Below are positions 20,227 through 64,000 of a stretch of DNA of 64,000 nucleotides, piece by piece. Both the position numbers and the translations under genes were made by a program. Each line of letters starts with the position of its first letter. Within the stretch, counting starts at the first letter, position 1. Below the pieces are notes generated by a model that saw only the letters and a list, made by a program, of their open reading frames with translations, was not told the origin of the DNA and ran no database searches. The stretch spans positions 248,001 to 312,000 of the forward strand of contig NZ_KE136475.1 of assembly GCF_000407145.1 (NCBI RefSeq), in the 5' to 3' direction. This DNA is from Enterococcus caccae ATCC BAA-1240 (GTDB lineage: Bacteria > Bacillota > Bacilli > Lactobacillales > Enterococcaceae).

Positions 20227-20244
20227 TTAGTAAATAACTTTAAA

Positions 20245-20250: not shown

Positions 20251-20274
20251 TTTAGATTACAGGAGGAGTCAGCT

Positions 20275-20394: not shown

Positions 20395-20510
20395 TCGCAG
20401 TAATTTTATAAGGTGAGTCAGTAGTAAAAAATGAGAATGAAGTTTAATGACTAATGAACAATTATATTTATTAAGAGCAAGAGAGCAATTTATGAATCCA
20501 TACTGCAGAC

Positions 20511-20554
20511 AAATACGTTCAACATTCAAAAATAGAATGTTGGGCGTATTTTCT
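20511..20554 (+). terminator. Terminator downstream of agrD
   Basis: Nested pairs AAATACG/CGTATTT and AACATTC/GAATGTT enclose AAAAATA and are followed by TTTTCTT. Confidence 0.75.
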
Positions 20555-20593
20555 TATCTTGGTAATGAAAACAATGTGAAAAAATAAAGGCTT

Positions 20594-21147: not shown

Positions 21148-21409
21148 TTTAAAACATTTTCTTCTCCTCTCACCATTTATTCCGTTAAGGAAGTTCTTGA
21201 TATATGACTCAAAAAGGCATGTCCCGCGTTTTTGTTTTTTCTATCTTATAGAAAGAAATGTGGACTAAAAAAATGAAATGTACTTTCTATTTGGCAATAG
21301 AGAAACAAGTAATCTACTATAACGTATTTAATAGGAGAATAACTAAAAGAATGTTCAGTAAATTTTTGTGGAAATTTCATTTTTAATCCTAATATTGGAA
21401 TAAAATAAT

Positions 21410-21431
21410 ACAGTTTTGATATCAAAACTGT
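21410..21431. promoter_or_regulatory. 22-bp perfect palindrome upstream of lanM, candidate operator
   Basis: ACAGTTTTGAT is followed immediately by its reverse complement ATCAAAACTGT. The same 11-mer occurs once upstream of agrB. It lies 130 bp before the lanM start and has no T-tract, so it looks like a protein-binding site, presumably for the agr regulator. Confidence 0.55.
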
Positions 21432-21467
21432 TGGTTTTCAAGAGAAATTGGCAATCCGGTTCTTTTT

Positions 21468-21526
21468 TTGACATCTACTGATGAAAATCTAAAAAGTAGA
21501 GAATTCACTTTATACTAAGTGTATAA
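21468..21526 (+). promoter_or_regulatory. lanM promoter region with TTGACA and a TTATAC-N5-GTATAA repeat
   Basis: TTGACA lies at 21468-21473 and TATACT at 21511-21516, but they are 37 bp apart, so they are not one standard promoter. The inverted repeat TTATAC TAAGT GTATAA (21510-21526) overlaps the likely -10, which suggests repressor or activator control. Confidence 0.45.
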
Positions 21527-21559
21527 GTTAATTCAAAAGAAAAAAACGAGGTGAATGAT

Positions 21560-24500
21560 ATGAGAAATGCAGTATTAGAAAACAAATTAAATGAGCAATC
21601 ATATGCTTTTGCTACAACAATGAAAGAACGTGGACAGCTTTTTTCAGATGAATTAGTTAATGAGGAGGACAATCAGCATTTGAAAAAATGGTTGGAAAGA
21701 AAATCATTAATGGGATCTAAGTTGTTTGAAACTAAGTTAGATATCTATGGAATTACAGAAGATGAATATAAAAAAGGGTTAAGAGAATTAACAAGAGAAA
21801 ACAGGAAAACCCTTGAAAAAAAATTAGCTGATCAAGACTGGTATCAACTGCATATGGAGTTGATGAATGAAACTTCTCACGAAATAGAAGCTACATTCAG
21901 TGATGTTTCTTATATTATTCGCAAGCACCTACTCTATTTGAACCAAGAGATTGAAAAGATAGTAAATATCTCAGAGATAAATATAGCGGATGAAGCTCTG
22001 GTCAAATATATCGAATTTGCTGCTACAGATATGTTAGGAATAATTATGCGAACCGTTGTTTTGGATGTCCATGAGAAAAAACAACAAGAGAATAATCAAG
22101 AGTTTACTTTCTTATCCTACCTAGCAGATAACTTTACAACCAATGAACAGCTAAATACTTTTTATGAAAAATATCCTGTACTAGCAAAACTGTTAGCAAA
22201 ACGATTGATTTTTTCTATTGCTAATTTTAAAGAGTTTATTAATGCCTTAAATCAGTCTAAAAAGGATATTTCTCAACTGTTGAATATATCAGTAAAAAAT
22301 TTGGACATAACTAAATTAAAAATTGGCGCGGGTGATAGCCATGGTAAAGGCAAAACAGTGATTATTGTTACATTCAATCAAACAAAGAAATTGGCTTTTA
22401 AGTTCAAAAATCTTAGAGTAGGAGAACGATTCAATATCTTTTTGAAGAAAATAGAAGAGCATTCTGAGTTTTCATTTTATAAAGTAAAGAGAATTTATGG
22501 AGAATCGTTTACTTTTGAAGAATTTGTTGAATTTAAAGAATGTGAAAATAAGAAAGAAGCGGGAGAATTTTATAAAGGGTTTGGTCATTTGATTGCACTA
22601 TCCTATATTTTACAAGCAAATGATTTACATTTTGAAAATATTATTGCGCACGGTAAATTTCCAGTCATTATTGACATTGAAACCTTAATTCAAAATGAGC
22701 CGCCGATAAAATTGGGAACGGATGCTTATGGAAAGTTCAAATATTCTGCGACAGATTCTGTTGTGAATACAGGATTAGTTCCAACTTTATTATTTCAAGA
22801 GAGAGTAGCTGAGGAAGAAAAGGAAAAAAAAGGTGTTCAGTTTAGCGCATTGAGTGGTGGAACACAAAAACTACCATTTAAAGTATTAAAACTAACAAAC
22901 CTTAATTCAGAAAATATGAAATATGAGTATCAAGATCATATTTTGGAAGGTGCATTGAACATTCCATCAATAGAAGGGACACAACTTAACTTTGAAGAAT
23001 ATAGTGAAATGATATTGGACGGTTTTACTACATTCATGCAGTTTGTTATTCAAAATAAGAATACAGTGGCAAAATGGGTGGAGCTTTTATTCAATGATTG
23101 CTTGGTAAGAAATGTCATCAAAGCAACGCAGCGATACGCTGACATGTTAGATTTTTCAACTCATCCTACTTGTACTATGGATTATAAGGAACGTGAAAAA
23201 TTGTTTGAAAATATATGGGCATACCCATATAAAGACATGCGGGCTGTTCCTTTTGAGGTAGAAGATTTATTGAATCATGATATTCCTATTTTCTTTAATA
23301 ATACAGGAACAAAAGATTTGATTGCATCAGATGGATCAATTATTTCAGATTATTACGCAGAAAAGCCAATTAACCGTACAGTGAATAAGATCAAAAATCT
23401 TACCGAGAAAGAGTTTCAGCAACAATTGAATTTATTAACATTGTCATTGGGATTGTACGACGGAGGTTTGGAAGAGTTAGTAATTACATCAGCTAAAGAG
23501 GAAACAACGAAAAAGACAGCTTTGTCTAAAGCAATTGCTATTGGAGACTTTTTATTGGATCGAGCTATTTGGGGGGAAAACAAAAAAACAGTGACTTGGC
23601 AAAAGTTACAAGTGGACAGCTATGATAATTGGTCAAATAGTGCAGTTTATTATGGACTGTATGAAGGACTCCAAGGGATTTACCTTTTCTTTTACAATTT
23701 AAACAAAATTAAACCAAGCCAAAGCTATCAAGAAGTTATTGATGCATTAAATAACTATCTTTTTAAAGAGAATCCATTTAAACCAGCGAATACAGATATG
23801 TTCTCTGGTCTAGGAAGTATTCTATATTTGTATACTCAATTATGTAAAGATTCTAAGAACGATTTGTATTTAGGCAAAGCTAGAACAATGGTTGAGGATC
23901 TAATTGAATGTACGAATAATTCTTCGTTGCAACCAGATTGGGTTGGTGGTTTAGCAGGCTTTTTAAAAGTATTGGTAGAGTTGTATAAAGTTACAAATGA
24001 TGATTTCTATTTAAAATCGGCAGATCAAGTAGTTGAAAAAATAGATATTTCAGAAATTAAAGTGGGCGGTTTTGCCCATGGATATTCTGGAATTTTAACA
24101 GCACTAAATTCCTTTGCACAGGTTGCAGGATACACTGAGAATGTCAAAGAAAAAATATGGCAAGCATTATTGTTGGAAAGAAAAACCTTCAGTGTACAAA
24201 AGCAAACGTGGCAAGACTTAAGAGAGGGCGAAGCAAACGGAAAACACTTTTGGTGTCATGGATCTGCTGGGATTGGAATGAGCCGATTGAGCTTACTTAG
24301 TTCAAATATTCAGGATGAAGTAATGCTGGATGAAGTAAGGATCGCTGCGAACAATGTATTGGAAAATGAATTAAATAATGATGGCTTATGCCATGGTAAT
24401 TATGGAAATATCGAATTTCTTATACAACTTTCTGAATCAAATTATGCAGATAAAGAATTAAAGAGAAGAATCAATCAGTATAAAGAACAACTGCTCGCAA

Positions 24501-24634
24501 ATTCCAGCTACAAGCTTTTAGGACTTAAAAACATACCGAGCGTTACTTTATTTGATGGCTTAAGTGGGATAGGGTATGAACTTTTAAGAATTGCCTCCCC
24601 TGAAAAGGTACCTAATGTTTTAATGTTGGATTAA
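21560..24634 (+). CDS. lanM: Class II lanthipeptide synthetase LanM (CylM-like)
   Basis: This 1024-aa bifunctional enzyme phosphorylates and dehydrates Ser/Thr and forms (methyl)lanthionine rings in the precursor peptides. The N-terminal DUF4135 kinase/lyase-like dehydratase domain has KFKNLRVGERFN (about residue 280) and FPVIIDIETLIQN (about 370). The C-terminal LanC cyclase domain (from about 700) has the zinc ligands in HFWCHGSAGIG (Cys about 899) and GLCHGNYGN (Cys-His about 943). ATG 21560 is chosen because GAGGTG at 21549-21554 suits it. The length matches CylM-type enzymes. It begins a co-directional operon lanM-lanT-lanP-five precursors. Confidence 0.95.
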   Translation: MRNAVLENKLNEQSYAFATTMKERGQLFSDELVNEEDNQHLKKWLERKSLMGSKLFETKLDIYGITEDEYKKGLRELTRENRKTLEKKLADQDWYQLHMELMNETSHEIEATFSDVSYIIRKHLLYLNQEIEKIVNISEINIADEALVKYIEFAATDMLGIIMRTVVLDVHEKKQQENNQEFTFLSYLADNFTTNEQLNTFYEKYPVLAKLLAKRLIFSIANFKEFINALNQSKKDISQLLNISVKNLDITKLKIGAGDSHGKGKTVIIVTFNQTKKLAFKFKNLRVGERFNIFLKKIEEHSEFSFYKVKRIYGESFTFEEFVEFKECENKKEAGEFYKGFGHLIALSYILQANDLHFENIIAHGKFPVIIDIETLIQNEPPIKLGTDAYGKFKYSATDSVVNTGLVPTLLFQERVAEEEKEKKGVQFSALSGGTQKLPFKVLKLTNLNSENMKYEYQDHILEGALNIPSIEGTQLNFEEYSEMILDGFTTFMQFVIQNKNTVAKWVELLFNDCLVRNVIKATQRYADMLDFSTHPTCTMDYKEREKLFENIWAYPYKDMRAVPFEVEDLLNHDIPIFFNNTGTKDLIASDGSIISDYYAEKPINRTVNKIKNLTEKEFQQQLNLLTLSLGLYDGGLEELVITSAKEETTKKTALSKAIAIGDFLLDRAIWGENKKTVTWQKLQVDSYDNWSNSAVYYGLYEGLQGIYLFFYNLNKIKPSQSYQEVIDALNNYLFKENPFKPANTDMFSGLGSILYLYTQLCKDSKNDLYLGKARTMVEDLIECTNNSSLQPDWVGGLAGFLKVLVELYKVTNDDFYLKSADQVVEKIDISEIKVGGFAHGYSGILTALNSFAQVAGYTENVKEKIWQALLLERKTFSVQKQTWQDLREGEANGKHFWCHGSAGIGMSRLSLLSSNIQDEVMLDEVRIAANNVLENELNNDGLCHGNYGNIEFLIQLSESNYADKELKRRINQYKEQLLANSSYKLLGLKNIPSVTLFDGLSGIGYELLRIASPEKVPNVLMLD

Positions 24635-52584: not shown

Positions 52585-53037
52585 ATGAGAATAATAAAGT
52601 ATGGAAGCCAAGATACAGATTTTTATGAACAAACACTTCACCTTAGAAATAAGGTTCTAAGGCAACCGTTAGGTAAAAGTATTTTTGAGGAAGATCTTAC
52701 AATTGAAAAAGAGAATGATTTTTATGGTTGGGAGAAAGAGCGTCAGATTATAGCGACATTAAGTATTTATACAAAAGAGAACAAAGTAGCTCAGTTAACG
52801 GCATTTGCAGTTGAACCTACGTATCAAAATAAAGGATATGGGAACCGTTTACTTGAGTTTCTTCTAGATGATTTGGGTAAAAAAGGGTATGAAAGAGTAG
52901 ATGTTTCAGCACGTTCAAGTGCAAAGACTTTTTATGAAAAGTCTGGTTTTATGGTTTTGGGGAATCCTGTAGTGAATGTGGCTTTAGGTACGGAAGACTA
53001 TTTAATGACAAGAGTTATTAATTTTTCTGTTAAATAA
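52585..53037 (+). CDS. GNAT-family acetyltransferase
   Basis: This 150-aa GNAT fold has the acetyl-CoA motif FAVEPTYQNKGYGNRLLEFL and the C-terminal RVDVSARSSAKTFYEKSGFM. It resembles ElaA/YitI-type proteins. The substrate is unknown. ATG 52585 follows AAGGGGAAG. Confidence 0.87.
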   Translation: MRIIKYGSQDTDFYEQTLHLRNKVLRQPLGKSIFEEDLTIEKENDFYGWEKERQIIATLSIYTKENKVAQLTAFAVEPTYQNKGYGNRLLEFLLDDLGKKGYERVDVSARSSAKTFYEKSGFMVLGNPVVNVALGTEDYLMTRVINFSVK

Positions 53038-53143
53038 ATAGAAACGGCGAAAAGATGTTGTGTATTATTGAAATATTTAGTACAATTTCATTATAAATAA
53101 AAATATTTTTTTGGTCTCAAAAAATATTAGGAGGTTTAGCGTA

Positions 53144-53419
53144 ATGAGTAAAAACTATCTAAATTATGTAGGTGAAATCATCACAGATGTCGAGTATCAC
53201 GGTTTAGGTGACCCAGCTGGTTTTTTAGAAGTACACATGGACGTCGAGTTACCGTTTCGATTGTACTGTAGGATGGGTGACAAAGACTGGGAAGAGGTCA
53301 CAGAACAGGAACGTTTAGCTTTAGTGGATCAGTTACAAGAAAAGAAATCAAAATATTCTAAGAGTGATTATCGATTTTACACATTGGATTTTTATCTAGC
53401 AAGTTTGGGAGGTTTATAG
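53144..53419 (+). CDS. Small conserved-looking hypothetical protein
   Basis: This 91-aa soluble, acidic protein is preceded by TTAGGAGGTTTAGCG. Landmarks are YVGEIITDVEYHGLGDPAGF and ELPFRLYCRMGDKDWEEVTE. It has no membrane segment. I do not recognise a family. A terminator follows. Confidence 0.7.
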   Translation: MSKNYLNYVGEIITDVEYHGLGDPAGFLEVHMDVELPFRLYCRMGDKDWEEVTEQERLALVDQLQEKKSKYSKSDYRFYTLDFYLASLGGL

Positions 53420-53488
53420 CTTACAGGCGATAATGAAAGCGTTTAATATCGAGGGTAGTATCAATGAAAGGAATAAACAAATAGAACC

Positions 53489-53523
53489 AAAGCCGCTTTT
53501 CAAATGAAAAGTGGCTTTTTTTA
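53489..53523 (+). terminator. Terminator ahead of the second peptide locus
   Basis: AAAGCCGCTTTTCA faces TGAAAAGTGGCTTT and is followed by TTTTT. Confidence 0.85.
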
Positions 53524-53652
53524 GGGCAGAAAATACTTTATTAGAATTTCTGTCGTCAATTATTTACCTTTGAGTGCATTTCTTTTCTACGTGAAATAAT
53601 TCGCTTAACTGAGTCTTAGCTTTCGTACTGTACACTTTTTTTACCATAGGAG

Positions 53653-53702
53653 TTACGTGAATGGTCACGGATTCCATTATACGTAAGAAATATGACGGAA
53701 TC
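53653..53702 (+). promoter_or_regulatory. Degenerate direct repeats upstream of the first small peptide gene
   Basis: TTACGTGAA and ATACGTAAG are about 26 bp apart; TCACGGATTC (53665) and TGACGGAATC (53693) are 28 bp apart. They form a loose tandem duplication in the presumed promoter, possibly sites for the LytTR regulator encoded downstream. Weak evidence. Confidence 0.35.
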
Positions 53703-53786
53703 AGTAAAACTGGTTTTTTCAATCATAGTAGGTGGTATTATTTCGGTGTAGACAAGAAGTCTAACAAAAAAAGTGGAGGTAAGAAA

Positions 53787-53900
53787 ATGAGAAAGTTAGA
53801 AAAAAAAGAATCAAAAAGTGTTTTAGCTGGTATTTGGGTGAGAGTGTGTTATTGGCGTAATGGAAGATTTCTAGGTTGTACACCTTGGAGATGGGTATAG
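53787..53900 (+). CDS. Short cationic two-cysteine peptide 1 (candidate bacteriocin or signal)
   Basis: This 37-aa peptide has AGTGGAGG 7 bp before the ATG. The leader MRKLEKKESKSVLAG is near-identical to that of peptide 2 and ends in Leu-Ala-Gly, a plausible C39 cleavage site. The remaining 22 residues are I-W-V-R-V-C-Y-W-R-N-G, then R-F-L-G-C-T-P-W-R-W-V. Two Cys flank an Asn-Gly, which favours a tight beta-turn, and both strands alternate aromatic/hydrophobic and Arg residues. This predicts a disulfide-closed cationic beta-hairpin (inference). It is not recognised as a known bacteriocin. Confidence 0.75.
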   Translation: MRKLEKKESKSVLAGIWVRVCYWRNGRFLGCTPWRWV

Positions 53901-53913
53901 TATAGTCGTTGAT

Positions 53914-53948
53914 CAGGTAACTAAAAGCTTAGCGCTTTTAGTTACCTG
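53914..53948 (+). repeat. Perfect 15-bp hairpin between the two peptide genes
   Basis: CAGGTAACTAAAAGC, loop TTAGC, GCTTTTAGTTACCTG. There is no T-tract (GAGTAAATT follows). It is a likely mRNA-stabilising or attenuating stem that sets the ratio of peptide 1 to the downstream genes. Confidence 0.7.
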
Positions 53949-53984
53949 AGTAAATTAAGAATGTAATAAATAAGGAGTGATAAA

Positions 53985-54095
53985 ATGAGAAAATTGAAAA
54001 AGTGTGAAGCTAAGATTGTTTTAGCAGGACGTTGGATCAGAGTATGTACGTCAAAAAACGGTGTCTTGAGCTGCGGGTCTTGGAAGTGGGTATGA
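53985..54095 (+). CDS. Short cationic two-cysteine peptide 2
   Basis: This 36-aa peptide has AAGGAGTG upstream. The leader MRKLKKCEAKIVLAG is followed by R-W-I-R-V-C-T-S-K-N-G-V-L-S-C-G-S-W-K-W-V. It aligns with peptide 1 throughout: the leader, R-V-C, the central N-G, the second Cys and the C-terminal W-(R/K)-W-V are conserved, while the loop is one residue shorter. It has an extra Cys in the leader (position 7). The paired arrangement suggests a two-peptide bacteriocin or a bacteriocin plus inducer. Confidence 0.75.
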   Translation: MRKLKKCEAKIVLAGRWIRVCTSKNGVLSCGSWKWV

Positions 54096-54137
54096 TTATT
54101 TATTTAGGAATAACTATATAAAAGTAAGGATGATAGG

Positions 54138-54365
54138 ATGAAAAGAAAAATGAGTACGAAAAAAAAGATAATATTATCTATGGTCACGGTCGCGTTGATA
54201 GGTGCTTTTGGATATGTTGTTTATATGCGTATGAACACACATACATTTAATAGTTGGACTGAGTTCCAAGAAAAAGGACCACAAGAAGGTGTGAACAATG
54301 TGCATTTAGATGATGAAGAATTTGAAAATTTACCAGATGATGTAAAAGATTCATTAAAACAATGA
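54138..54365 (+). CDS. Small single-pass membrane protein, candidate immunity protein
   Basis: This 75-aa protein has a Lys-rich N-terminus (MKRKMSTKKK), one membrane segment (IILSMVTVALIGAFGYVVYM) and an acidic outer tail (GVNNVHLDDEEFENLPDDVK). A negatively charged outer tail opposite positively charged peptides, directly after the two peptide genes, suits an immunity or chaperone role (inference). No family is recognised. AAGGATGATAGG is the ribosome site. Confidence 0.65.
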   Translation: MKRKMSTKKKIILSMVTVALIGAFGYVVYMRMNTHTFNSWTEFQEKGPQEGVNNVHLDDEEFENLPDDVKDSLKQ

Positions 54366-54494
54366 AGTACATAAAAAGAAAGCTAAAATGAATTCTAGGA
54401 GGTTATACTTCTGTGTTTATTTTAGTTTTTTATGATGAACGCTCTAAATAGTTGTCACTTTCCAAAATAATTCATACATTTGAGCTTGTATATT

Positions 54495-54503
54495 TGGTAT
54501 AAT
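54495..54503 (+). promoter_or_regulatory. Extended -10 promoter of the second kinase-regulator pair
   Basis: TGGTATAAT fits TGnTATAAT, 41 bp before the kinase start. The -35 is weak. It allows the sensor genes to be expressed apart from the peptides. Confidence 0.6.
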
Positions 54504-54543
54504 AGAAAGTGTATTATTGTTATGAAATTAAGGGGTGAATTCA

Positions 54544-55968
54544 TTGATCACTAGATTTTTGTTCTATATTCAGAATTACTATTTAATTTATTTGACCATA
54601 TTTTTTCCAATCATCGTATGCACTTATTTAAGGTTTAGGAAAACGCTTCATTTTAAAAATTGGCTTGTAATTATTTGTGGATTTCTTTTACTTGATTTTA
54701 TTAAATATCAATTGATATTTTCCTATCATGGATCAGATAATCTAATGTATATGGAGTTGCCAAATGAATTTTTGCTAGGAACAACGTTTTCAATGCTGAT
54801 AATGATTACCTTGTTCTTTAAACAAGTTTCATATAATGAAGTGGTTAGCCAAGTATCACTTATTTATTTAGTAGTTTACTTTGTTCGAAATGTTGTTCCG
54901 CTTATATTAGTTTCAATTTTTTCTGAAGTAGATATGTTTACATATAGTATCGCAGTCACAATTTTCTCAGTGATTATCTATTCTATCATTGATAAACAAA
55001 TTACCAACTTAAAAAATAAATATTATTTTAGTGATGTAACAAAAGTAATCCCATCACTTTTGTTCGTCGGTATTCTGATTTTGAATTTTATCATGATTTA
55101 CTTTATGAATGGCGATGATTCAGGGGATGCGACAATGAAGTCTGTAATGGAAAGTCATAAAGTCCAAAATTATAGTAATATTCGAACGTTGTCAGATGGC
55201 AGTTTTTATCTGCTCTTTTTTGTAGGAGTCATGATTTCCATGGCATTCATAATTATAAATAATAATGTGAAAAATCAAAAACTGAAATTTCAATTGGAAA
55301 AGGCACAAGAATTAGAAAACTACATTCAAAGTATTGAATTGATTAGAGATGAAATCCTTAGTTACCAACATGATTATGATAATATCTTTATTGGGTTATC
55401 AGGGCTCATCTATAATGAGAACTTCAATTTGGATAAACTAAAACAATATTATGAAAGTAGTTCAAATCAAGTTCTTAAAAATAAAGGAATTCGAATAATT
55501 AAGCTATTGAACATGAAAAATTTGAATATTCCTGAATTAAAAGGGATTCTTGCTCATAAAATATTATTAGCAAACCAAAAAGGAATCAATCTTCATTTTG
55601 AAGTAACTGATTTAATAGAACATATTGAGATGGATAAGACTGATCTTACTAGATGTATAGGAATCTTAGTAGATAATGCTATTGAAGCTACTGAAAAAAG
55701 TTCAATACAAGAAATTGATATAGCTTTTATAAGAAAAAGTAATTCTGTGATTTTTGTGATCCAAAACACATTTGAATCAGAAAAATCGAGAACTACTGAG
55801 CTTCAGACAGCTGGAGAAAAACGAATAGTTGAGGAACACATCTATCGCCACGGATTTGGACTGAAAAATATTCAGATGATTATCAATCAATATAAAAATA
55901 TTCAAATAAAAACAAAAGTAGTACAAAATCGTTTTATACAAGAAATTCACTTTTACGAGGAGGAATAA
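54544..55968 (+). CDS. AgrC-like histidine kinase of the second peptide locus
   Basis: This 474-aa kinase has about seven N-terminal membrane segments and a GHKL kinase domain: H-box ILSYQHDYDNIFIGLSGLIY, N-box GILVDNAIEATEK, G-box HGFGLKNIQMIINQY. TTG 54544 is chosen because AAGGGG at 54530-54535 is correctly spaced; GTG 54535 overlaps it. It is paralogous to the agrC kinase at 17413. There is no agrB or agrD nearby, so its ligand is probably one of the C39-exported peptides, as for PlnB/ComD-type kinases (inference). Confidence 0.88.
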   Translation: MITRFLFYIQNYYLIYLTIFFPIIVCTYLRFRKTLHFKNWLVIICGFLLLDFIKYQLIFSYHGSDNLMYMELPNEFLLGTTFSMLIMITLFFKQVSYNEVVSQVSLIYLVVYFVRNVVPLILVSIFSEVDMFTYSIAVTIFSVIIYSIIDKQITNLKNKYYFSDVTKVIPSLLFVGILILNFIMIYFMNGDDSGDATMKSVMESHKVQNYSNIRTLSDGSFYLLFFVGVMISMAFIIINNNVKNQKLKFQLEKAQELENYIQSIELIRDEILSYQHDYDNIFIGLSGLIYNENFNLDKLKQYYESSSNQVLKNKGIRIIKLLNMKNLNIPELKGILAHKILLANQKGINLHFEVTDLIEHIEMDKTDLTRCIGILVDNAIEATEKSSIQEIDIAFIRKSNSVIFVIQNTFESEKSRTTELQTAGEKRIVEEHIYRHGFGLKNIQMIINQYKNIQIKTKVVQNRFIQEIHFYEEE

Positions 55969-55969
55969 G

Positions 55970-56710
55970 ATGATATCTATTTATATCTGTGAAGATGATT
56001 CTGTTCAATCAGAAAATTTATCCTATATAATCAACAAAAAGTTGATGGCAGATGACTTAAGTATGGAAATAGCCTTGAATACCAAACAACCATTAAAGCT
56101 ATTGGAAGCAATAAAAGAAAACACTGGGTTATCTGTTTATTTCTTAGATATTGAAATAGAAGATAGTAATATCAATGGGTTAATGCTAGCCCAAAAGATT
56201 AGGGAATATGATCCAGATGGTTATATTATCTTTGTCACTACTCATTCTGAAATGAGTTTTTTAACCTTTCAATATAAAGTAGGTGCTTTAGATTTCATTA
56301 TAAAAGATAAAATCCAAGTGATGGAGTCTAAAATCAATGATTGCATTGATACTATCGAGAAACGATTACAAGCGAAGGGGAATAAACAAAGTGATTATTT
56401 TACTGTAAATGACGGGGATGAGTTATCTTATATAGCATACAACGATATTTACTTTTTTGAGGTAACTGATAACCATCGCATTTTACTTGAAGGAAATAAT
56501 TGCCAAGTTAATTTTTATGGAACGTTGAAAGATGTAGAAAAAAGAGTAGATAGCAGATTTTTTAGAAGCAGTAAATCATTTTTAATCAATACTAAAATGA
56601 TTTGTCGACTTGATCCCAAAGATAGAATTATTTATTTTCCTAACAATAAGACGGCATTAGTCTCTAGGTTAAATTTAAAGCCATTACAAAAACTTAAAAA
56701 TCCTTTGTAA
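55970..56710 (+). CDS. LytTR response regulator of the second peptide locus
   Basis: This 246-aa protein has a receiver domain (MISIYICEDDSVQSENLSYI; Asp in VYFLDIEIEDS; FVTTHSEMSFLTFQYKVGAL) and a C-terminal LytTR domain (SRFFRSSKSFLINTKMICRL). It is clearly paralogous to the agrA-like protein at 16668. The ATG lies 1 bp after the kinase stop, with GAGGAGG upstream. A perfect terminator overlaps its stop codon. Confidence 0.9.
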   Translation: MISIYICEDDSVQSENLSYIINKKLMADDLSMEIALNTKQPLKLLEAIKENTGLSVYFLDIEIEDSNINGLMLAQKIREYDPDGYIIFVTTHSEMSFLTFQYKVGALDFIIKDKIQVMESKINDCIDTIEKRLQAKGNKQSDYFTVNDGDELSYIAYNDIYFFEVTDNHRILLEGNNCQVNFYGTLKDVEKRVDSRFFRSSKSFLINTKMICRLDPKDRIIYFPNNKTALVSRLNLKPLQKLKNPL

Positions 56711-56748
56711 CAAAAAGCCATTCGCGTTACGCGAATGGCTTTTTGTTT
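56710..56748 (+). terminator. Strong terminator separating regulator and export genes
   Basis: ACAAAAAGCCATTCGCG, loop TTA, CGCGAATGGCTTTTTGT, then TT. It is a perfect 17-bp stem. Confidence 0.92.
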
Positions 56749-56853
56749 CTGCTTAGGTGCTGATTGAATACAAGTTAAGTAAAAAACAAAAATGAGTGCA
56801 AATCTGATGCTATATTGTTCATATAAATTTGAAACAAGGAAAGGATGAACGAC

Positions 56854-57399
56854 ATGAAAGTAAATGGTAAGTATAAAAAAATAATAGCAGCTTGTTTGAT
56901 TTTAGGGGGAAGCGTTCTTTTTACAGGATGTTCTAATTCTTCAGAAACGACAGCGAAACAAAAAAATGAATCAAACACTTCAACTCAGCCAACTACAGAA
57001 ACGAAAAAAAAGAACAGTCAAGCGGAAACGAAGAATGGAAGTAGCGAGTTCCAAGAAATCGATTCTGCTCAAGCAACAAAATTGTTAGAGAAGAAAACGG
57101 CATTTTTTATTTTCTATGGGAAAAAGCAATCGAAAGAATATCAGCACTATCAAGAGATTATCACTAAATTGCCAGTAGATATTGCTGAACAAGTCTATTT
57201 TATGGATGAAGAGAAAGAAAACGAGGGTGAATTAAATAAAAAATATATGTTTGAAATGGCTCTAGAAGATGGCAAGTATGAGAATGTTGGAGTTTATTTT
57301 GAAGCTGGTCAACCTAAGAGAATTTGGGGTCCAACTTTTGAAGCAGAAGAAATTGAAGAGCTTTTTGACGGTAAAGAAATCAAAAGACCAGTGAAATAA
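56854..57399 (+). CDS. Thioredoxin-like lipoprotein without active-site cysteines
   Basis: This 181-aa lipoprotein has a signal ending GGSVLFTGC (lipobox TGC), a Ser/Thr/Lys/Gln linker, and a C-terminal domain (LLEKKTAFFIFYGKKQSKEY QHYQE ... GVYFEAGQPKRIWGPTFEAE). The domain has the secondary-structure pattern of a thioredoxin fold, with K-K-Q-S where CxxC would be. It cannot be an oxidoreductase by that site. As first gene of the export operon it may bind the peptide (immunity or chaperone). ATG 56854 is preferred because AAAGG immediately abuts the earlier ATG at 56845. Confidence 0.75.
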   Translation: MKVNGKYKKIIAACLILGGSVLFTGCSNSSETTAKQKNESNTSTQPTTETKKKNSQAETKNGSSEFQEIDSAQATKLLEKKTAFFIFYGKKQSKEYQHYQEIITKLPVDIAEQVYFMDEEKENEGELNKKYMFEMALEDGKYENVGVYFEAGQPKRIWGPTFEAEEIEELFDGKEIKRPVK

Positions 57400-57413
57400 T
57401 GGAGGCGATCATA

Positions 57414-58469
57414 GTGAAAAATAAAAAAAGATGGATGATTATAGGTAGTATCAGCATTGTTATATTAAGTGTAGCTATCTTCTTTTTGACAAATAAAAAG
57501 AAAGTAGAAAAAGTATATTCTAGTTATACGGTTACACCGACAGAAGATTTACATTTTTCTGGAACTGTCAAAGCTAAAAAAGTCCAAAATGTTTTTTATG
57601 ATGCAACACAAGGTGAAATCACCTCACTGGCTGTTCAAAATGGAGCAGATGTGAAAGCAGGAGATACCTTGGTAAACTATTCAAGTAAGGCGGATCAACT
57701 TGCATTAAATGAAAAAACAGCTGTACAATCCCAGTACACTACCAATATTGCTAATCTAACGAAGGAACTACAAGAAAAAAAGTATGCGTATAATCAAGCA
57801 GTAAATGCTAGTGATGATGCCAAAAAACAAGCAGCCGAGACAGCAATTAACACAATTGAAACATCGATTACACAATATCAAGATCAGCTGACAGACGTAA
57901 ATGCGCAGATAGCTTCTTTAAATAGCAAAAAAGAATCAGCAATCGTAGCTGAGTTTGATGGGAAAATAGTAGTTGATGAAGTTGCTAAGAAAGATGCTAC
58001 GAAACCAGTTGTAACCGTTCATTCAAACGATAATATCATAGAATTTGCGGCGACAGAGTATGATATAGAAAAAATTGGCTTAGATCAAGAAGTTAACATT
58101 TCTCTGATGAATCAAGAAAAAAAGATTCCAGGAAAAGTGACCTATAAATCAGCTATTCCAAAACAAGAAGAAAAACTATCTGCCTCATATACAGGTGAAG
58201 TGACGCCAAATGAAACAATTCCTTTAGGCTATTCAGTAAAAATATCTATTCCGCAAAATGAAATAAAACTGCCAGCAGATACCGTTGTAATGAAAGACCA
58301 GAATAGTTATGTTTACATCTATAAAAATGGTAAAGCGAACAAACAAAAAGTATCCGTTGAAAAAGTAGATCAAGATACTTATCGATTAAAAGAAGGTGCG
58401 GTCAACAAAGACAAGCTATTACGAAAATCGAGTAGTCTGAAAGATAAGATGGATGTGAAGATAAAATGA
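57414..58469 (+). CDS. MacA-like membrane-fusion (HlyD-type) adaptor
   Basis: This 351-aa protein has an N-terminal anchor (WMIIGSISIVILSVAIFFLT), a split biotinyl-lipoyl domain (GEITSLAVQNGADVKAGDTL and EFDGKIVVDEVAKKDATKPV), a coiled-coil hairpin between them (about residues 105-170) and a beta-barrel C-terminus. GTG 57414 is chosen because GGAGG at 57401 suits it. In Gram-positives such adaptors work with MacB-type ABC transporters to export peptides or provide immunity. It overlaps the next gene (ATGA). Confidence 0.88.
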   Translation: MKNKKRWMIIGSISIVILSVAIFFLTNKKKVEKVYSSYTVTPTEDLHFSGTVKAKKVQNVFYDATQGEITSLAVQNGADVKAGDTLVNYSSKADQLALNEKTAVQSQYTTNIANLTKELQEKKYAYNQAVNASDDAKKQAAETAINTIETSITQYQDQLTDVNAQIASLNSKKESAIVAEFDGKIVVDEVAKKDATKPVVTVHSNDNIIEFAATEYDIEKIGLDQEVNISLMNQEKKIPGKVTYKSAIPKQEEKLSASYTGEVTPNETIPLGYSVKISIPQNEIKLPADTVVMKDQNSYVYIYKNGKANKQKVSVEKVDQDTYRLKEGAVNKDKLLRKSSSLKDKMDVKIK

Positions 58470-59131
58470 TTCAATTAGAAAAAGTCAAAAAATATTATGG
58501 ACAAGATGATAACAAGTTATGGGTACTGAAAGATATCAGTTTAAAGATTCAAGAAGGTGAATTTACGGCGATAATGGGTCCTTCTGGCTCGGGAAAATCT
58601 TCCCTGATGAATACAATCAGTTTTTTAGACGGTGATTTTTCAGGTGATTATTTTTTTAATGGTGAACAAGTTTATCAGTATGATGATAAAAAACTTTCGC
58701 TTATTCGAAATAGTACAGTTGGATTTGTTTTTCAATCATTTAATTTGATTGAAAATTATACTGCCTATGAAAATGTCGAATTGCCATTGTTATACAGTGG
58801 GTGTACGCATAAGGAAGTACGATTGCAAGTAACAGAGATGTTAGAAAAAGTAGGGATAGGAGATAAAGGGAATAACCTACCAAAACAATTATCTGGTGGA
58901 CAGCAACAAAGAGTTGCTATCGCTAGGGCCTTGATCAATCAACCTAAATTTATTGTGGCGGATGAACCGACAGGGGCACTAGATACAAAAACCTCAGATG
59001 AAATATTAACACTTTTTAAGCAATTGAATGAAGAAAATGGCGTGACTATTCTAATGGTTACTCATGATCAAGAAGCTGCAAACTATTGTAGTCGAGTAAT
59101 CGACGTTAGGGATGGTTTAGTAGTTGGATAG
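58466..59131 (+). CDS. MacB-like ABC transporter ATP-binding protein
   Basis: This 221-aa LolD/MacB-type ATPase has Walker A GPSGSGKSS, signature LSGGQQQRVAIARAL, Walker B FIVADEPTGALD and H-loop VTHD. It works with the FtsX-type permease that follows 12 bp later. Confidence 0.93.
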   Translation: MIQLEKVKKYYGQDDNKLWVLKDISLKIQEGEFTAIMGPSGSGKSSLMNTISFLDGDFSGDYFFNGEQVYQYDDKKLSLIRNSTVGFVFQSFNLIENYTAYENVELPLLYSGCTHKEVRLQVTEMLEKVGIGDKGNNLPKQLSGGQQQRVAIARALINQPKFIVADEPTGALDTKTSDEILTLFKQLNEENGVTILMVTHDQEAANYCSRVIDVRDGLVVG

Positions 59132-59143
59132 GGAGGATTAGTT

Positions 59144-60349
59144 ATGAAAATAATGATTATCTGGGAATCAGCTATAAGAGCTGTTCGTAAAAATGGGAGA
59201 AGAAGCTTTTTGACCATGTTAGGATTGATCATCGGGATTGCCTCTGTCATAACGATCGTATCTGTAGGTAGAGGATATAAACAAGCTCAAATGCGAGAAT
59301 TATTACCGACGAGCGATGAAAAAACAACACAAGTGACGCTTAAATTTACGCCTAAAGAAAATACATTTAAAGATATGAACTTTAAAAATTTTAACCAAAA
59401 AGATTTACAGTTGATTGAAGGGATATATGGCGTAGAGAAAGTAGCGTATGCGAAAGAAGCAAAAGATGAGATGTATCGTAAAAAAGAAGTAACTTACAGA
59501 GAAAAAAGTGAGGCCATGCAAATTCAATTGATTCCATCTTTATCAGTAGGAAAGAAGACGCTGCCTTTAAAAAATGCTCGAAATCTTCAAGAGAGTGATT
59601 TAGTGAATCGAAATAAAGTCGTTTATGTTTCTTCTCAGATATTAGGTGAGGATTCCGAAAAAGATGCGAATTCTTTAGTTGGAGATATTATAAAAATTCA
59701 AGGAGAAGATTTTTTGATCATCGGTGTTTTTCCTTCGACAGCATATTCTACATTAAAAATTCGTATGCCAGCTAAAACATATGAAACTTACTTCCCAGAT
59801 GAAACAGAAGCGAATGTAAATGTCACTTTTACAAATGAGATTTCTGCAGCAAGTATGTTAGATGACCTTACTCGTCTGATGAACTCTAAAGGAAGTAATA
59901 AGGACCTTGGAAAATATCAGCCGACAGCTGATGGGGGAATGGCAGATACTTTAGGTGAATTATTTTCATCAATGACAACAATGTTTACCTTTGTTGGAGC
60001 AATATCTCTATTTGTTTCAGGAGTTGGTGTAATGAATATGATCTATACTTCAATTTCAGAACGAACAAAGGAGATTGGGATCCGTAGAGCTTTAGGCGCA
60101 ACCGAACAAGCAGTACAGTTACAGTTTTTATTTGAAGGGTTGACGATTACTTTGATTGCTGGTGGAATTGGGTATGTTTGCGGACTATTAATTGCAAAGT
60201 TCATTAGTTTGATTTTGAATTTTAATTTTATTCCAGACTTATTTACAGCACTTATTGCAGTCTTACTTTCGGTAGTTGTAGGGTTAGTCTTCAGTTATTA
60301 TCCATCTAAAGCAGCGACTGAAAAAGATGTTGTTGAGTTGGTACGTTAA
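59144..60349 (+). CDS. MacB/FtsX-type ABC transporter permease
   Basis: This 401-aa protein has one N-terminal segment (FLTMLGLIIGIASVITIVSV), a large extracytoplasmic MacB core domain (about residues 50-270) and three C-terminal segments (FTFVGAISLFVSGVGVMNMI, then YTSISERTKEIGIRRALGAT, and two more). This is the mechanotransmission-type layout. With the adaptor and ATPase it forms a complete MacAB-like exporter, suited to self-protection or release of the peptides. Confidence 0.92.
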   Translation: MKIMIIWESAIRAVRKNGRRSFLTMLGLIIGIASVITIVSVGRGYKQAQMRELLPTSDEKTTQVTLKFTPKENTFKDMNFKNFNQKDLQLIEGIYGVEKVAYAKEAKDEMYRKKEVTYREKSEAMQIQLIPSLSVGKKTLPLKNARNLQESDLVNRNKVVYVSSQILGEDSEKDANSLVGDIIKIQGEDFLIIGVFPSTAYSTLKIRMPAKTYETYFPDETEANVNVTFTNEISAASMLDDLTRLMNSKGSNKDLGKYQPTADGGMADTLGELFSSMTTMFTFVGAISLFVSGVGVMNMIYTSISERTKEIGIRRALGATEQAVQLQFLFEGLTITLIAGGIGYVCGLLIAKFISLILNFNFIPDLFTALIAVLLSVVVGLVFSYYPSKAATEKDVVELVR

Positions 60350-60367
60350 AAAAGGGGAGGAACATAA

Positions 60368-62458
60368 ATGAAGTATGCACATACGATTCAAAATGAGAAT
60401 AGTGATTGTGGAGTAGCTGTTTTAGAAACGGTACTTAATCAGCTGGATTTAAAAAAGATTCAACTATCCAAAAGCTTGGGGGAAATCTTAAAAAATAAAA
60501 AGTATGATGAACAAGGGCTTTCACTTTATGATATCAAAGTGGTTTTGGAGAAGTATGGTGTGAGTTCTGATTGTTATGAAGTAATCGATTTCGAGGAGCT
60601 TAGAGGACAGAGAGCGCCACAAATTATTACAATAAAAAAATCAGGGCTGCCACATTATTGCGTAATTCATGCGTTTAAAGAAAATACACTAGTATTATCG
60701 GATCCTTCTGAAGTAAATGTCTTTGAAAAAAGTATAGAAGAAATAAAGGAAGATTTTTCTGGTTATGCAGTTTGTATCGATGAAGTAAGCAAGGTGACTA
60801 AGATTTCAAAAACAAGAAGCTACCCAGAAGAAGTCGTCTATCGGTCGTTGCGTGAGATTCCTACGAAGGAAAAATTTTTATCGATAAGCGCATTGTTATT
60901 TTCGATGTTTCTTCCAATCATTGCAACATATGGACTTGAATATTTATCAGGTAAATATGTTTCTACGTTGACAGTCAGTACGATTTCGTTGATAGGCTGT
61001 TTTGTTGGCGTGCTGATTGTCATTTATTTTTATCTGATGAGATATAATACACGATTTAAAATTGAGTTAGGAAATAAGATAGAACAGAAAGTTCTGACTC
61101 GCTTCTTTGAGTCTAAACTCAATGATACAACAGCTAAGGCGAATTTAGATAATCTTACAGGTTATTTTTGGAACTGTATCAATGCTACGCAAGGGTTATT
61201 AGAAAAATTCTATCTCATTGTTCATATTTTATTTTCAATCATACTCGTGGTGTTATTAGCTAAATATAGTTTTCTGTTAGCTGCTAATTTATTGTTTTGG
61301 TCGATCGTATTTTATGTTTTTATAAGGCCTTATATTCAAAAAATCTGTTTAAGCTATAAGGGATTCATCGCTCATTCAAATATTCTATCTGGAACATTTG
61401 AAGAATCAATCAGAACAACGCTTGATATCAATGTTTTTTCTAAAAAAACAGATACAGAGAAGAACTTTCAGTTTCGACTATCTGATTATTTTGGAACCAA
61501 ACTTGAATTAGGCGATACAGATACAATTATATCAGCAATCATGGAAGGCACTCGAATTTTAATGATGTTGACGCATTTTATTCTATATGCTTATTTATTT
61601 AAAACAAATCATCTAGATTTACTAGCAGGAGTAGCTAGTGGGATTTATGTACTTTATATTGCAACGACAGGTTTGAATAGTCTATTTGGTAGCTATCTAT
61701 CTTATGAAAAAAGTAAAGAAGCCATTCAGTACATTGAAACAAAAAATGATTTTGAAGAAAAAGAGGAGCAGGAAATAAAAAACATTGAGGTAGAATGTAT
61801 TCGCGAGTTACGCTTGACGGACATTTGCTTTTCGTATGAAGGAAACAAGGTCTTACAAAACCAAAACTATCATTTTACTTCGGGGAATTTATACTCGATT
61901 GTTGGTAAAAATGGTGTTGGAAAATCAACACTGATCAAATTGATTTGCGGATTGATCGACAATCAGGAAGGAGAATTCATCATCAATATGCAGACTAAAT
62001 TGAATAGTATGAAGCAGACGAATATTTTAGAGCATATTTCGTATTATTCAACAGAAATGGATGTTTATGGACAATCAATTGAAAATAATATTTTGTTTAA
62101 CGTCTTTAATCCGAAAAACAAAATGGATGAACCTTTGAATCCAGAATATTTTGATCAGATGAATGTAGAACAAACGATAGATAGTTTAGTTACATCTTCG
62201 GGCAGAAACATTTCTCAAGGCCAAAAACAAAAGTTACTTTTGTTACGAACATTGAATAAAGAAGCAGATATTTATATATTTGATGAGCCAACAGGAAATT
62301 TGGATCAAGAGACTAAGCAGTCCTTTATGAGTATCGTTCAAGCATTGGTGAAAGATAAGAAGAAAATCGTTCTTATCATTACTCATGATGAAAACATTAT
62401 AGAACAAGCAGATAAAACGTATACTTTGAAAGAAGGTGAAGCAAGTGAAAATGGATAA
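60368..62458 (+). CDS. Peptidase-containing (C39) ABC transporter
   Basis: This 696-aa protein has a C39 domain with Cys14 (NENSDCGVAVLETVL), His (GLPHYCVIHAF) and Asp (LVLSDPSEVN); about six membrane segments; and an ATPase with Walker A GKNGVGKSTLIKL, a divergent signature ISQGQKQKLLLLR and Walker B ADIYIFDEPTGNLD. It should cut and export double-glycine-type peptides; the two short peptides with LAG sites are the only local substrates. It is only distantly similar to the LanT at 24650. The ribosome site is AAAGGGGAGGAAC. Confidence 0.9.
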   Translation: MKYAHTIQNENSDCGVAVLETVLNQLDLKKIQLSKSLGEILKNKKYDEQGLSLYDIKVVLEKYGVSSDCYEVIDFEELRGQRAPQIITIKKSGLPHYCVIHAFKENTLVLSDPSEVNVFEKSIEEIKEDFSGYAVCIDEVSKVTKISKTRSYPEEVVYRSLREIPTKEKFLSISALLFSMFLPIIATYGLEYLSGKYVSTLTVSTISLIGCFVGVLIVIYFYLMRYNTRFKIELGNKIEQKVLTRFFESKLNDTTAKANLDNLTGYFWNCINATQGLLEKFYLIVHILFSIILVVLLAKYSFLLAANLLFWSIVFYVFIRPYIQKICLSYKGFIAHSNILSGTFEESIRTTLDINVFSKKTDTEKNFQFRLSDYFGTKLELGDTDTIISAIMEGTRILMMLTHFILYAYLFKTNHLDLLAGVASGIYVLYIATTGLNSLFGSYLSYEKSKEAIQYIETKNDFEEKEEQEIKNIEVECIRELRLTDICFSYEGNKVLQNQNYHFTSGNLYSIVGKNGVGKSTLIKLICGLIDNQEGEFIINMQTKLNSMKQTNILEHISYYSTEMDVYGQSIENNILFNVFNPKNKMDEPLNPEYFDQMNVEQTIDSLVTSSGRNISQGQKQKLLLLRTLNKEADIYIFDEPTGNLDQETKQSFMSIVQALVKDKKKIVLIITHDENIIEQADKTYTLKEGEASENG

Positions 62459-62858
62459 GAAAAAAATAACGCTACTATTTGTCTTATTATTTGTCTTATC
62501 TTTTTTTATCTATAAAAATATTATTGTAGAAACAAGTGCTGCTGGATTTGAGGAACCTACGATTGAAGAACTAACTAAACAAATCGAAGAGAAAGAAACC
62601 GTGTTGATCTATTATTCAGCACAAGAGTGTCTAGCCTGTCAGATATTCACGCCAATCTTAAAAGACAAGACAAGCGCTTTGAATATACCTGTTTATCAAA
62701 TAGACGCAGCCAATACTAAGAATTTAACATTTGTAAGTAAATATAACTTGATGGTTACACCAACACTAGTACTATTTAAAGAGGGAAAAATAACGAGGCA
62801 AGAAGGTGCACTTGAAAAAGATGAATTAGAAAAGTTATTGGTAGAATGGGATGTATAA
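62445..62858 (+). CDS. Membrane-anchored thioredoxin-like protein 1 (CLAC)
   Basis: This 137-aa protein has an N-terminal anchor (ITLLFVLLFVLSFFIYKNII) and an extracytoplasmic thioredoxin fold with active site QECLACQIF and cis-proline VTPTLVLF. GTG 62445 fits AAGG at 62433-62436; the gene overlaps the transporter gene by 14 bp. It is similar in role to bacteriocin accessory (Bta-like) proteins. It probably introduces or isomerises the disulfide in the exported two-Cys peptides (inference). Confidence 0.87.
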   Translation: MKMDKKKITLLFVLLFVLSFFIYKNIIVETSAAGFEEPTIEELTKQIEEKETVLIYYSAQECLACQIFTPILKDKTSALNIPVYQIDAANTKNLTFVSKYNLMVTPTLVLFKEGKITRQEGALEKDELEKLLVEWDV

Positions 62859-62874
62859 AGGAGTTTGAACAAAA

Positions 62875-63387
62875 ATGAAAAAATATTGGTATGTAATAAC
62901 TTCAGTAATCGCTGTTTTAGGATGTTTCTTATACCAGTTTGGTATCCGGGCAGAGTTAGCGACTCAAAAAGAAAAATTGATAGCAGAACAAAAAAAATAT
63001 CCAGAAATTTATGACGTACTAAATTCGATGACCATAGAAAATTTTGAAAACGAAGTGAGTGAAAAGAAAGAGTTGATTGTATATGTAGGTAGACCAACTT
63101 GTCAGGATTGTACTGAATTTGAACCCAAACTAATAGAAATGCTGAAAAAATACGAGTTGCAAGATAAAGTAGAGTATTTAAATGTAGCACAAATTCGAAA
63201 GGATGAGAGGGATTGGGAAAATTTCAAAGCAAAATATCACGTTGAATATACACCGGCTATTGTGAATTTTAAAGAAGGTAAACTTGTTACAATGGTAAAC
63301 TGGACCCCAGAGAAAGGCACTGAGATGGAACAATTTGACAATTATCTGAATAATCTAAAGAAACAGTTGCTTGTTTCTCATATCTAA
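62875..63387 (+). CDS. Membrane-anchored thioredoxin-like protein 2 (CQDC)
   Basis: This 170-aa protein has an N-terminal anchor (YWYVITSVIAVLGCFLYQFG), a helical linker and a thioredoxin domain with RPTCQDCTEFEPKL and cis-proline VEYTPAIVNF. It differs from its neighbour in active-site dipeptide (Gln-Asp instead of Leu-Ala), so the two may form an oxidase/isomerase or oxidase/recycling pair. AAAGGAGTTTG precedes the ATG. It is the last gene of the operon. Confidence 0.87.
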   Translation: MKKYWYVITSVIAVLGCFLYQFGIRAELATQKEKLIAEQKKYPEIYDVLNSMTIENFENEVSEKKELIVYVGRPTCQDCTEFEPKLIEMLKKYELQDKVEYLNVAQIRKDERDWENFKAKYHVEYTPAIVNFKEGKLVTMVNWTPEKGTEMEQFDNYLNNLKKQLLVSHI

Positions 63388-63428
63388 TTTGTATTATAAA
63401 AGAATTATGTCCCTTTTACTTTATGCTT

Positions 63429-63456
63429 AAAGAGAACATGGTTCTTTTTTTTATTT
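63429..63456 (+). terminator. Terminator of the second peptide operon
   Basis: AAGAGAAC, loop ATG, GTTCTTTT, then T-rich DNA. The rest of 63457-63710 holds a possible promoter (TATAAT at 63667) for the next gene and no coding sequence that I can support. Confidence 0.75.
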
Positions 63457-63710
63457 TTTTAAGACGATTTGTACTTCTTGTTACTTTAAAATAAAAGAGC
63501 AGGTATAATAAAGTTACGGACGGATTATACTGATTATGATTGTGTATCAAGATATATATAGGGAAAAGGGTTGACAGAAGTAAAGTATAAGAGCAGGAAT
63601 GGCAACGTGTTCCATCAATATGAAAAGAGAGGGATTAGATTTTAAGAAACTACGGATAAGTTAACCTATAATAACATATAAAAAATAACCGAAACAAATG
63701 GAGGGACTAA

Positions 63711-64000
63711 ATGACAATCCAAATAGAAAGAGTAGCAACAACTCATCCAGATTTATTCTCTTTAATCCAAGAATTAAATGATTTCTTTAATAAAGAATGG
63801 GGACTCGAAGTTGCTGAAGGCTATCAAAATCATCATAATCTAGCTGAAATGGTATGCGCAGTTGTGGCTTACGAGGATCAGGTTGCAGTTGGATGTGGCT
63901 GTTGGAAACTTCTAGATGAGCAAACGCCAGAAATAAAACGAATGTATGTCAAAGAAGCGAGTAGGGGGAACGGCGCTGCTGGAAAAATTATCCAAGCGTT
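63711..64000 (+). CDS. GNAT-family acetyltransferase, 3' truncated by window edge
   Basis: ATG 63711 follows TGGAGGGACTAA. The 96 visible residues read MTIQIERVATTHPDLFSLIQ, then EWGLEVAEGYQNHHNL and IKRMYVKEASRGNGAAGKII, where R-G-N-G-A-A-G is the acetyl-CoA loop of GNAT enzymes. The C-terminus is beyond the window. The substrate is unknown. The separate promoter and terminator suggest it does not belong to the peptide locus. Confidence 0.85.
   Translation, partial: MTIQIERVATTHPDLFSLIQELNDFFNKEWGLEVAEGYQNHHNLAEMVCAVVAYEDQVAVGCGCWKLLDEQTPEIKRMYVKEASRGNGAAGKIIQA

Follow-up and report, generated by a model that had tools for sequence, protein, structure and literature searches.

Paired precursors of very small two-cysteine peptides in Enterococcus caccae: candidate hairpin bacteriocins with relatives beside C39-peptidase exporters

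The precursor genes and the adjoining cluster

The window, a stretch of 64,000 nucleotides from Enterococcus caccae ATCC BAA-1240, contains two short open reading frames that precede a run of larger genes (Table 1). The first encodes a 37-residue precursor, with leader MRKLEKKESKSVLAG, core IWVRVCYWRNGRFLGCTPWRWV and GGAGG ahead of the start; the second encodes 36 residues, MRKLKKCEAKIVLAG followed by RWIRVCTSKNGVLSCGSWKWV, with GGAG ahead, and the two products are 61% identical to each other. A first-pass annotation, made from the DNA letters, had described both frames, their shared leader, their mature patterns and cores of 22 and 21 residues, and re-reading of positions 53787-53900 and 53985-54095 bears this out. 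Precursor 1 has a longer in-frame start at 53661, giving 79 residues; the start at 53787 is favoured because it follows the GGAGG and yields the 15-residue leader common to the relatives. The 36-residue precursor has a third Cys within the leader, at position 7.

The core cysteines enclose eight residues in peptide 2 and nine in peptide 1. Asn-Gly had been placed centrally between them in both; it is exactly central in peptide 2, whereas in peptide 1 it is off centre by one residue, and a direct cross-strand disulfide in this nine-residue loop would need a bulge or a different turn. The net charge is +4 in this pair, and the calculated masses of the oxidised cores are 2850.43 Da (peptide 1) and 2462.25 Da (peptide 2).

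Table 1. Precursor genes, adjoining cluster genes and inverted repeat (window positions; E-values from profile scans).
Feature	Position	Strand	Basis
Precursor 1, 37 aa: 15-aa leader MRKLEKKESKSVLAG and 22-aa core IWVRVCYWRNGRFLGCTPWRWV	53787..53900	+	ORF reading, family alignment, AlphaFold2
16-nt perfect inverted repeat between the precursor genes, without T-run; possible RNA hairpin for processing, stability or attenuation	53913..53949	+	Repeat search
Precursor 2, 36 aa: leader MRKLKKCEAKIVLAG and 21-aa core RWIRVCTSKNGVLSCGSWKWV; Cys21/Cys30 symmetrical about Asn25-Gly26	53985..54095	+	ORF reading, alignment, AlphaFold2
75-aa candidate immunity protein; a single hydrophobic stretch at the N-terminus, C-terminal part acidic	54138..54365	+	Pfam/NCBIfam matches sub-threshold only
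AgrC-like GHKL histidine kinase	54535..55968	+	Pfam HATPase_c_5 1.2e-16; NCBIfam AgrC NF046015 1.3e-31, below model cut-off
AgrA-like LytTR response regulator	55970..56710	+	Pfam LytTR 9.5e-18, Response_reg 1.3e-12; NCBIfam AgrA NF046049 1.8e-64, below cut-off
Probable lipoprotein, without CxxC	56857..57399	+	Pfam/NCBIfam: no convincing family
Membrane-fusion / periplasmic-adaptor-like protein	57399..58469	+	TIGR01730 5.9e-16, below cut-off
MacB/LolD-type ABC ATPase; with neighbours, candidate self-protection pump	58466..59131	+	Best NF038007 1.1e-68, below cut-off
MacB-type permease	59144..60349	+	NF007826 MacB 1.1e-38, below cut-off
C39-peptidase ABC exporter; predicted leader cutting and core export	60368..62458	+	Pfam Peptidase_C39 1.4e-20, ABC_tran 3.9e-23, both above cut-off
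Thioredoxin-like protein, CLAC motif	62439..62858	+	Pfam Thioredoxin 3.6e-12; NCBIfam PedC/BrcD 8e-10, below cut-off
Thioredoxin-like protein, CQDC motif	62875..63387	+	Pfam DUF6568 1.4e-16, Thioredoxin 2e-08, both above cut-off

All large genes from the precursors to position 63387 lie on one strand with short gaps or overlaps, from which we infer a single operon. The names AgrC-like, AgrA-like and MacAB-like denote resemblance, because several of the NCBIfam matches fall below the model cut-offs. In the exporter, Gln8, Cys14 and His96 are invariant across 15 homologues. Pfam and NCBIfam scans returned nothing convincing for the 75-residue protein, and nothing in the cluster could be assigned to an experimentally known family of immunity proteins; a 70-residue frame of like make-up is present in locus L044 at 5263, and blastp does not match the two. 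The same scans found neither a lanthionine nor a radical-SAM enzyme among the genes from 54138 to 63387. The cluster has no AgrB, the single AgrB match of the genome lying 34 kb away at window position 19605-20078 beside a kinase of its own, and this leaves the cluster kinase without an obvious thiolactone signal.

Hairpins comparable to the repeat between the precursor genes also occur 3' of the precursor genes in L044, L046 and L016, a comparison made without shuffle control. No terminator-like site was found, and an Rfam scan of window positions 53000-64000 gave no match; promoter-like sites numbered 7, which is uninformative beside the 4.8 ± 2.4 of shuffled sequence. LytTR/AgrA-type direct repeats identical at 8 of 9 positions do not occur upstream of either peptide gene (0.34 and 0.13 in shuffles). 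Looser 7/9 repeats are present there, as they are in L044 and L046, and were not counted as evidence.

Relatives in other genomes

The exporter as query matches 22 of the 105 genomes of the taxonomic family at E <= 1e-30, 18 of them at an identity of at least 28%; for 18 genomes the surroundings of the exporter were read. In other species, too, related exporters are adjoined by short frames that combine two Cys with a leader of similar type. At E <= 0.05 a profile built from 18 precursors matches 24 of the 105 genomes. The best E is <= 1e-5 in 16 of them, where every listed match at the stricter level has a related exporter within 7 kb; because about 11 of the 16 had supplied rows of the profile, recovery is not independent, and the informative part of the search is that no equally good match lies away from an exporter. 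The other two exporter genomes (G008 and G012) have larger precursors with a similar leader and with four and three Cys in the core region. Within the 3.55-Mb E. caccae genome (G000) the family profile matches just the two window sites at E <= 0.05, these by construction, since the profile includes both sequences, so that the absence of others is what informs.

Weaker matches were left uncounted (G008, G012, G024, G039, G051, G069, G074 and G075; best E 0.0028 to 0.033), and G051 was rejected as a family member, its region holding a different Cys-rich frame. Searching with a single sequence at E <= 1 gave matches in 12 genomes out of 22, and context upheld only that in G005 (0.03); the match at L062 (E 0.107) was discarded, there being no exporter there. 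A scan of contigs with the exporter alignment returned at least 80 loci at 21-31% identity through generic ABC-transporter motifs, and gives no distribution.

Genomes beyond the taxonomic family were sampled only. In these wider samples, at E <= 1e-3, a 17-row profile had matches in 18 genomes among 395 from the order and in 4 among 398 from the class. They added G366, G261 and G423, with one common core QICLYYWYGIGFLCWD, and G665, in which six copies of FCIFKIGIVGIFCW adjoin an exporter and a LanF-like ATPase that shares 63% identity with the L045 one. G261 retains only an exporter fragment, and G423 lacks the exporter and has an ATA start; G746 (E 7.9e-5), whose reading frame contains a stop, was set aside. 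By locus, apparent decay takes the form of an exporter reduced to a 118-residue match at 10709-11065 in L198, of a missing exporter and a start codon replaced by ATA in L199, and of a second thioredoxin-like gene broken into two frames in L048 (2888-3399).

A tblastn search of plasmids with the precursors found three records, which at E 4 to 10 were taken as chance, and further runs gave none. Plasmid pMBEL1842 of Weissella hellenica (CP086021.1) resembles the family in having a single 41-residue precursor, MKKLTDTAAQQISAG followed by KKWHWPHFVNVCSKSPFVHRCTWTLQ, a 29% identical exporter and a CPYC thioredoxin-like gene. It differs in that its central residues are Pro-Phe and that no kinase or protection transporter was seen in the stretch read. 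Its precursor is unannotated in the gene table used, which is incomplete by its own description.

Features of the family

In the alignment the leader is 15 residues long and ends in an invariant Gly15 preceded by Ala or Gly, and both core Cys are likewise invariant; the 17 of 17 rows in each case had been chosen as precursors, so that the invariance is a matter of consistency and not a discovery. The exception in leader length is L054, with precursors of 56-58 residues. Its array (14248-15400) alternates two precursor types, both with these unusually long leaders.

Loci carry between one copy (L044, L046, L059 and L016) and seven (L051 and L057), often near-identical. Among within-locus copies in three array groups pS is 0.219, 0.221 and 0.245 and pN 0.008, 0.006 and 0.012, giving pN/pS of 0.037, 0.027 and 0.049, values that are descriptive only because the pairwise comparisons overlap. 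Between species, under the same limit, pN/pS is 0.127/0.578, 0.005/0.335 and 0.084/0.361 in three groups, a ratio of about 0.22-0.23 in two of them, owing mainly to leader changes, and of 0.015 in the third. The low array values show that the relatives' peptides, and not the DNA alone, are kept by purifying selection. Together with the sole profile matches in the genome and the recurrence of leader and two Cys beside related exporters, they confirm at the level of sequence that the two window frames are more than chance.

Most relatives' cores are small, hydrophobic and weakly charged, array members having 12-18 residues, and 15 of 21 tabulated cores have a net charge between 0 and +2 (range -1 to +4). 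As a trait of the family, the strongly cationic, protegrin-like character suggested in the first-pass annotation finds no support; the charge of +4 marks this pair.

Twenty-two hairpin-type loci were counted for neighbouring genes (L016, L044-L059, L063, L158 and L198-L200). At least one CxxC thioredoxin-like protein is encoded in 17; blastp with the window's proteins detected none in L059, L158, L198, L199 and L200, and such helpers are thus not universal. A protection-type ABC transporter is present in 21 loci, MacAB-type in three and LanF-like (lantibiotic-protection-like) in 18, L016 having neither; the one LanF-like ATPase tested matched TIGR03740 at 9.8e-65, below cut-off. A small LiaG-like protein encoded in relatives' loci gave a weak match (0.00088). 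Kinase and regulator are both found in three loci, the window included (L044, L046 and L063), and eight of the 22 carry a ComR-like regulator, of which one protein tested matched Pfam ComR_TPR at 3.8e-60. ComR-type regulators are reported to drive bacteriocins in Streptococcus salivarius (PMC6703854), a parallel for the array loci.

Several further small frames accompany these genes. ComR-type loci have a conserved frame of 68-70 residues (...IKYFI.D....H..L.IVN) upstream of the LanF-like gene (L045 8488, L052 8029, L053 9228, L054 8347, L055 8721, L057 8258), the L045 copy having no Pfam or NCBIfam match. In five loci (L047 14129, L048 2827, L049 2865, L050 14648, L054 14046) the first small frame past the second thioredoxin-like gene joins the family leader to a core with one or no Cys, as in KILAPASSWWLYQVLCGSWK and KRASLFSKWSYFAVLNRR, possibly a pheromone or partner peptide. 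A similar leader and an exporter accompany larger Cys-rich cores in L060 (14136), L061 (7539) and L157 (12110), with four, three and three Cys; two of these end alike in ...CT.AP and look related.

The inter-cysteine loop and predicted fold

The inter-Cys loops of the family are 6, 8, 9, 10 or 11 residues long. Among the distinct loops, near-copies such as the variants in L045, L047, L049, L051 and L054 being left out, 19 are even (6, 8 or 10) and four odd (peptide 1, L046, L044 and L059), the latter unscorable for a central residue. Glycine occupies one or other central position in 16 of the 19 even loops, where within-loop shuffling predicts 4.83 (P 1.2e-8), and the second central position in 13 (2.49 expected); a thinned set gave 12 of 15 against 3.85 (P 2.8e-6). 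The rule was derived from the first 13 loops (10, with 3.27 expected), and all six loops added afterwards follow it (1.56 expected), two of them having come through a profile that contained the glycine column.

Asn-Gly itself is kept in few relatives. It forms the central pair in peptide 2, L054 (RFVWNGWGFF) and L050 (LLDINGYRLF), and elsewhere the pair is Trp-Gly, Lys-Gly, Phe-Gly, Tyr-Gly or Gly-x. Of the Cys/Asn-Gly pattern, whose conservation the first-pass annotation had proposed as a check, the two Cys have held in every aligned row, Asn-Gly as such has not, and its place has, through the midway glycine and through Asn-Gly at the centre in two further species. A midway glycine is what a tight-turn hairpin with cross-strand Cys demands; the nine-residue loop of peptide 1 is not an exact fit.

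AlphaFold2 models, built without templates from 17 short related rows, place strands at residues 17-24 and 27-35 of precursor 1 and 17-24 and 27-34 of precursor 2, with a turn at residues 25-26 (Asn-Gly) in both. Confidence is modest, with mean pLDDT of 63.3 and 61.0 (79 and 74 over residues 21-30) and pTM of 0.26 and 0.24. In the model of peptide 2, Cys21 would lie opposite Cys30, judged by the strand ends and not by coordinates.

Comparison with known systems

Searches of the precursors against Pfam and NCBIfam gave nothing convincing (best E 0.085), PDB sequences gave no match at E <= 10, and six core fragments had no occurrence in the literature searched. Nor did its titles, opening lines and some passages yield a paper describing such a family. 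The precursors seem to represent an undescribed group of very small antibiotic or signal peptides. Of the earlier view, a secreted bacteriocin or pheromone pair, probably of disulfide-closed hairpins from an unrecognised family, is supported; a strongly cationic, protegrin-like character common to the family is not.

By design, bactofencin A is the closest known peptide, with ring size, self-protection genes and regulation different here. Its operon has a DltB-type immunity gene, to which no match was found among the window cluster proteins scanned; unlike it, the window cluster has an AgrC/AgrA-like pair, a MacAB-like pump and two thioredoxin-like proteins. Bactofencin A, a class IId (linear, non-pediocin) bacteriocin of Ligilactobacillus salivarius, has a basic core of 22 residues with one disulfide, Cys7-Cys22, a C39-peptidase ABC exporter and a thioredoxin-family accessory protein (PMC5465099, PMC7616364), all of which recall the present system. 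Its Cys are 14 residues apart (PMC5465099), against 8 and 9 here, and the relatives' array members differ further in being hydrophobic and only 12-18 residues long. In E. coli its disulfide is described as forming without the accessory thioredoxin of that operon (PMC5465099), so that the presence of thioredoxin-like genes does not prove a need for them.

The pediocin-like (class IIa) bacteriocins share a double-glycine-type leader, a C39 exporter, a PedC/BrcD-like accessory protein (here sub-threshold matches) and a disulfide (here predicted), but both peptides lack YGNGVxC, on which ground this reading was rejected, the core is much shorter and the self-protection genes are others. Agr autoinducing peptides are likewise served by an AgrC/AgrA-type receptor and regulator. 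Unlike them, the present precursors have a C39 leader, two Cys and a predicted disulfide ring in place of a thiolactone, and the lack of an AgrB beside them set the agr-thiolactone reading aside. Lanthipeptide and radical-SAM readings were dismissed, no modifying enzyme being found among 54138-63387, and a defensin-like reading of the peptides was considered and rejected.

The predicted disulfide-clasped hairpin recalls the animal peptides protegrin, tachyplesin and arenicin, and the outer bridge of protegrin encloses eight residues, as in peptide 2. The differences are a single disulfide and a bacterial double-glycine leader and exporter, and most family members, unlike this pair, are barely cationic; no sequence relation is claimed.

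Proposed function and alternatives

We regard it as probable that the two genes specify very small, unmodified, one-disulfide bacteriocins with double-glycine leaders (class IId-like), exported, folded as hairpins, autoinduced and accompanied by self-protection. Both features counted for class II, a leader ending in (A/G)G and an adjacent C39 exporter, are present; as dedicated immunity gene there are the 75-residue membrane protein, which has no convincing family match, and the MacAB-like pump as candidates only. If the genes are expressed, the exporter would cut past Ala-Gly at position 15 and release the 22- and 21-residue cores. The two thioredoxin-like proteins may help to pair the two Cys outside the membrane into one disulfide, which would clasp a two-stranded β-hairpin with its turn midway between them (Asn-Gly here). 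The AgrC/AgrA-like pair would sense one or both exported peptides and autoinduce the operon, while the pump, and perhaps the acidic 75-residue protein, would guard the producer. The most likely target is the cell envelope of related competitors, as suggested by the LanF-like transporters and small LiaG-like protein of related loci.

The kinase and regulator directly downstream, also adjoining the precursors in L044 and L046, and the missing AgrB, which deprives this kinase of an obvious thiolactone signal, would also suit peptides that are pheromones only, disulfide hairpins that switch on the AgrC/AgrA-like pair without killing, the pump having another task. We hold this to be unlikely, since most related loci have no such kinase nearby, eight having a ComR-like regulator instead, and since up to seven near-identical copies beside LanF-like transporters resemble genes for a product and not for a signal. 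Less likely still is activity of the two peptides only jointly, as a two-peptide (class IIb-like) bacteriocin. Different cores on similar precursors, encoded in tandem ahead of a shared set of helper genes, and the two alternating core types of L054 would fit such a pair; against it, only one hairpin-type precursor appears in the examined stretches of L044, L046, L059 and L016, one core is repeated throughout in several arrays, and the GxxxG helix motif, a mark of class IIb, is absent.

At a glance the small cores rich in Cys, Trp and Lys are also like some modified peptides, and a thioether or radical-SAM crosslink might replace the disulfide. With CxxC thioredoxin-like genes in the cluster and no match to the corresponding enzymes from 54138 to 63387, we consider this very improbable. 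That the locus is decayed or untranslated is hardly credible: visibly decayed relatives do exist in G261 and G423, but in the window every cluster gene has an open frame, and ribosome-binding sites precede the two peptide genes.

A bolder form of the bacteriocin reading is conceivable, though we would not favour it. Here the family would consist of minimal bacterial β-hairpins (12-26 residues) with a single disulfide and an exactly midway glycine turn that arose independently of the animal ones, and in this locus a disulfide ring would replace the agr thiolactone as ligand of an AgrC-like receptor.

Should the cores prove active, they would rank with the smallest unmodified bacteriocins and, being 12-mers in some relatives, be easily synthesised. 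Their natural series of loops of 6, 8, 9, 10 and 11 residues, with its simple sequence rule, offers a test of turn and disulfide placement against hairpin fold and activity, and the adjoining kinase would allow one to ask directly whether a disulfide-ring peptide is recognised by AgrC-type receptors. Gene callers easily overlook frames of 27-41 residues, as the Weissella precursor illustrates.

Neighbouring loci

The arrays of L052-L055, L057 and L058 are neighboured by a very large gene resembling rpoC in its first residues and have downstream genes in common, indicating a chromosomal place common to several species. The window itself contains an agr-like locus at 17413-24634, with AgrB (Pfam 2.8e-29), a GHKL kinase on the minus strand and a 39-residue frame at 20275-20394 that could be AgrD and has no Pfam match. 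Adjoining it is a LanM-like lanthipeptide synthetase (DUF4135 6.6e-91, LANC_like 5.3e-54).
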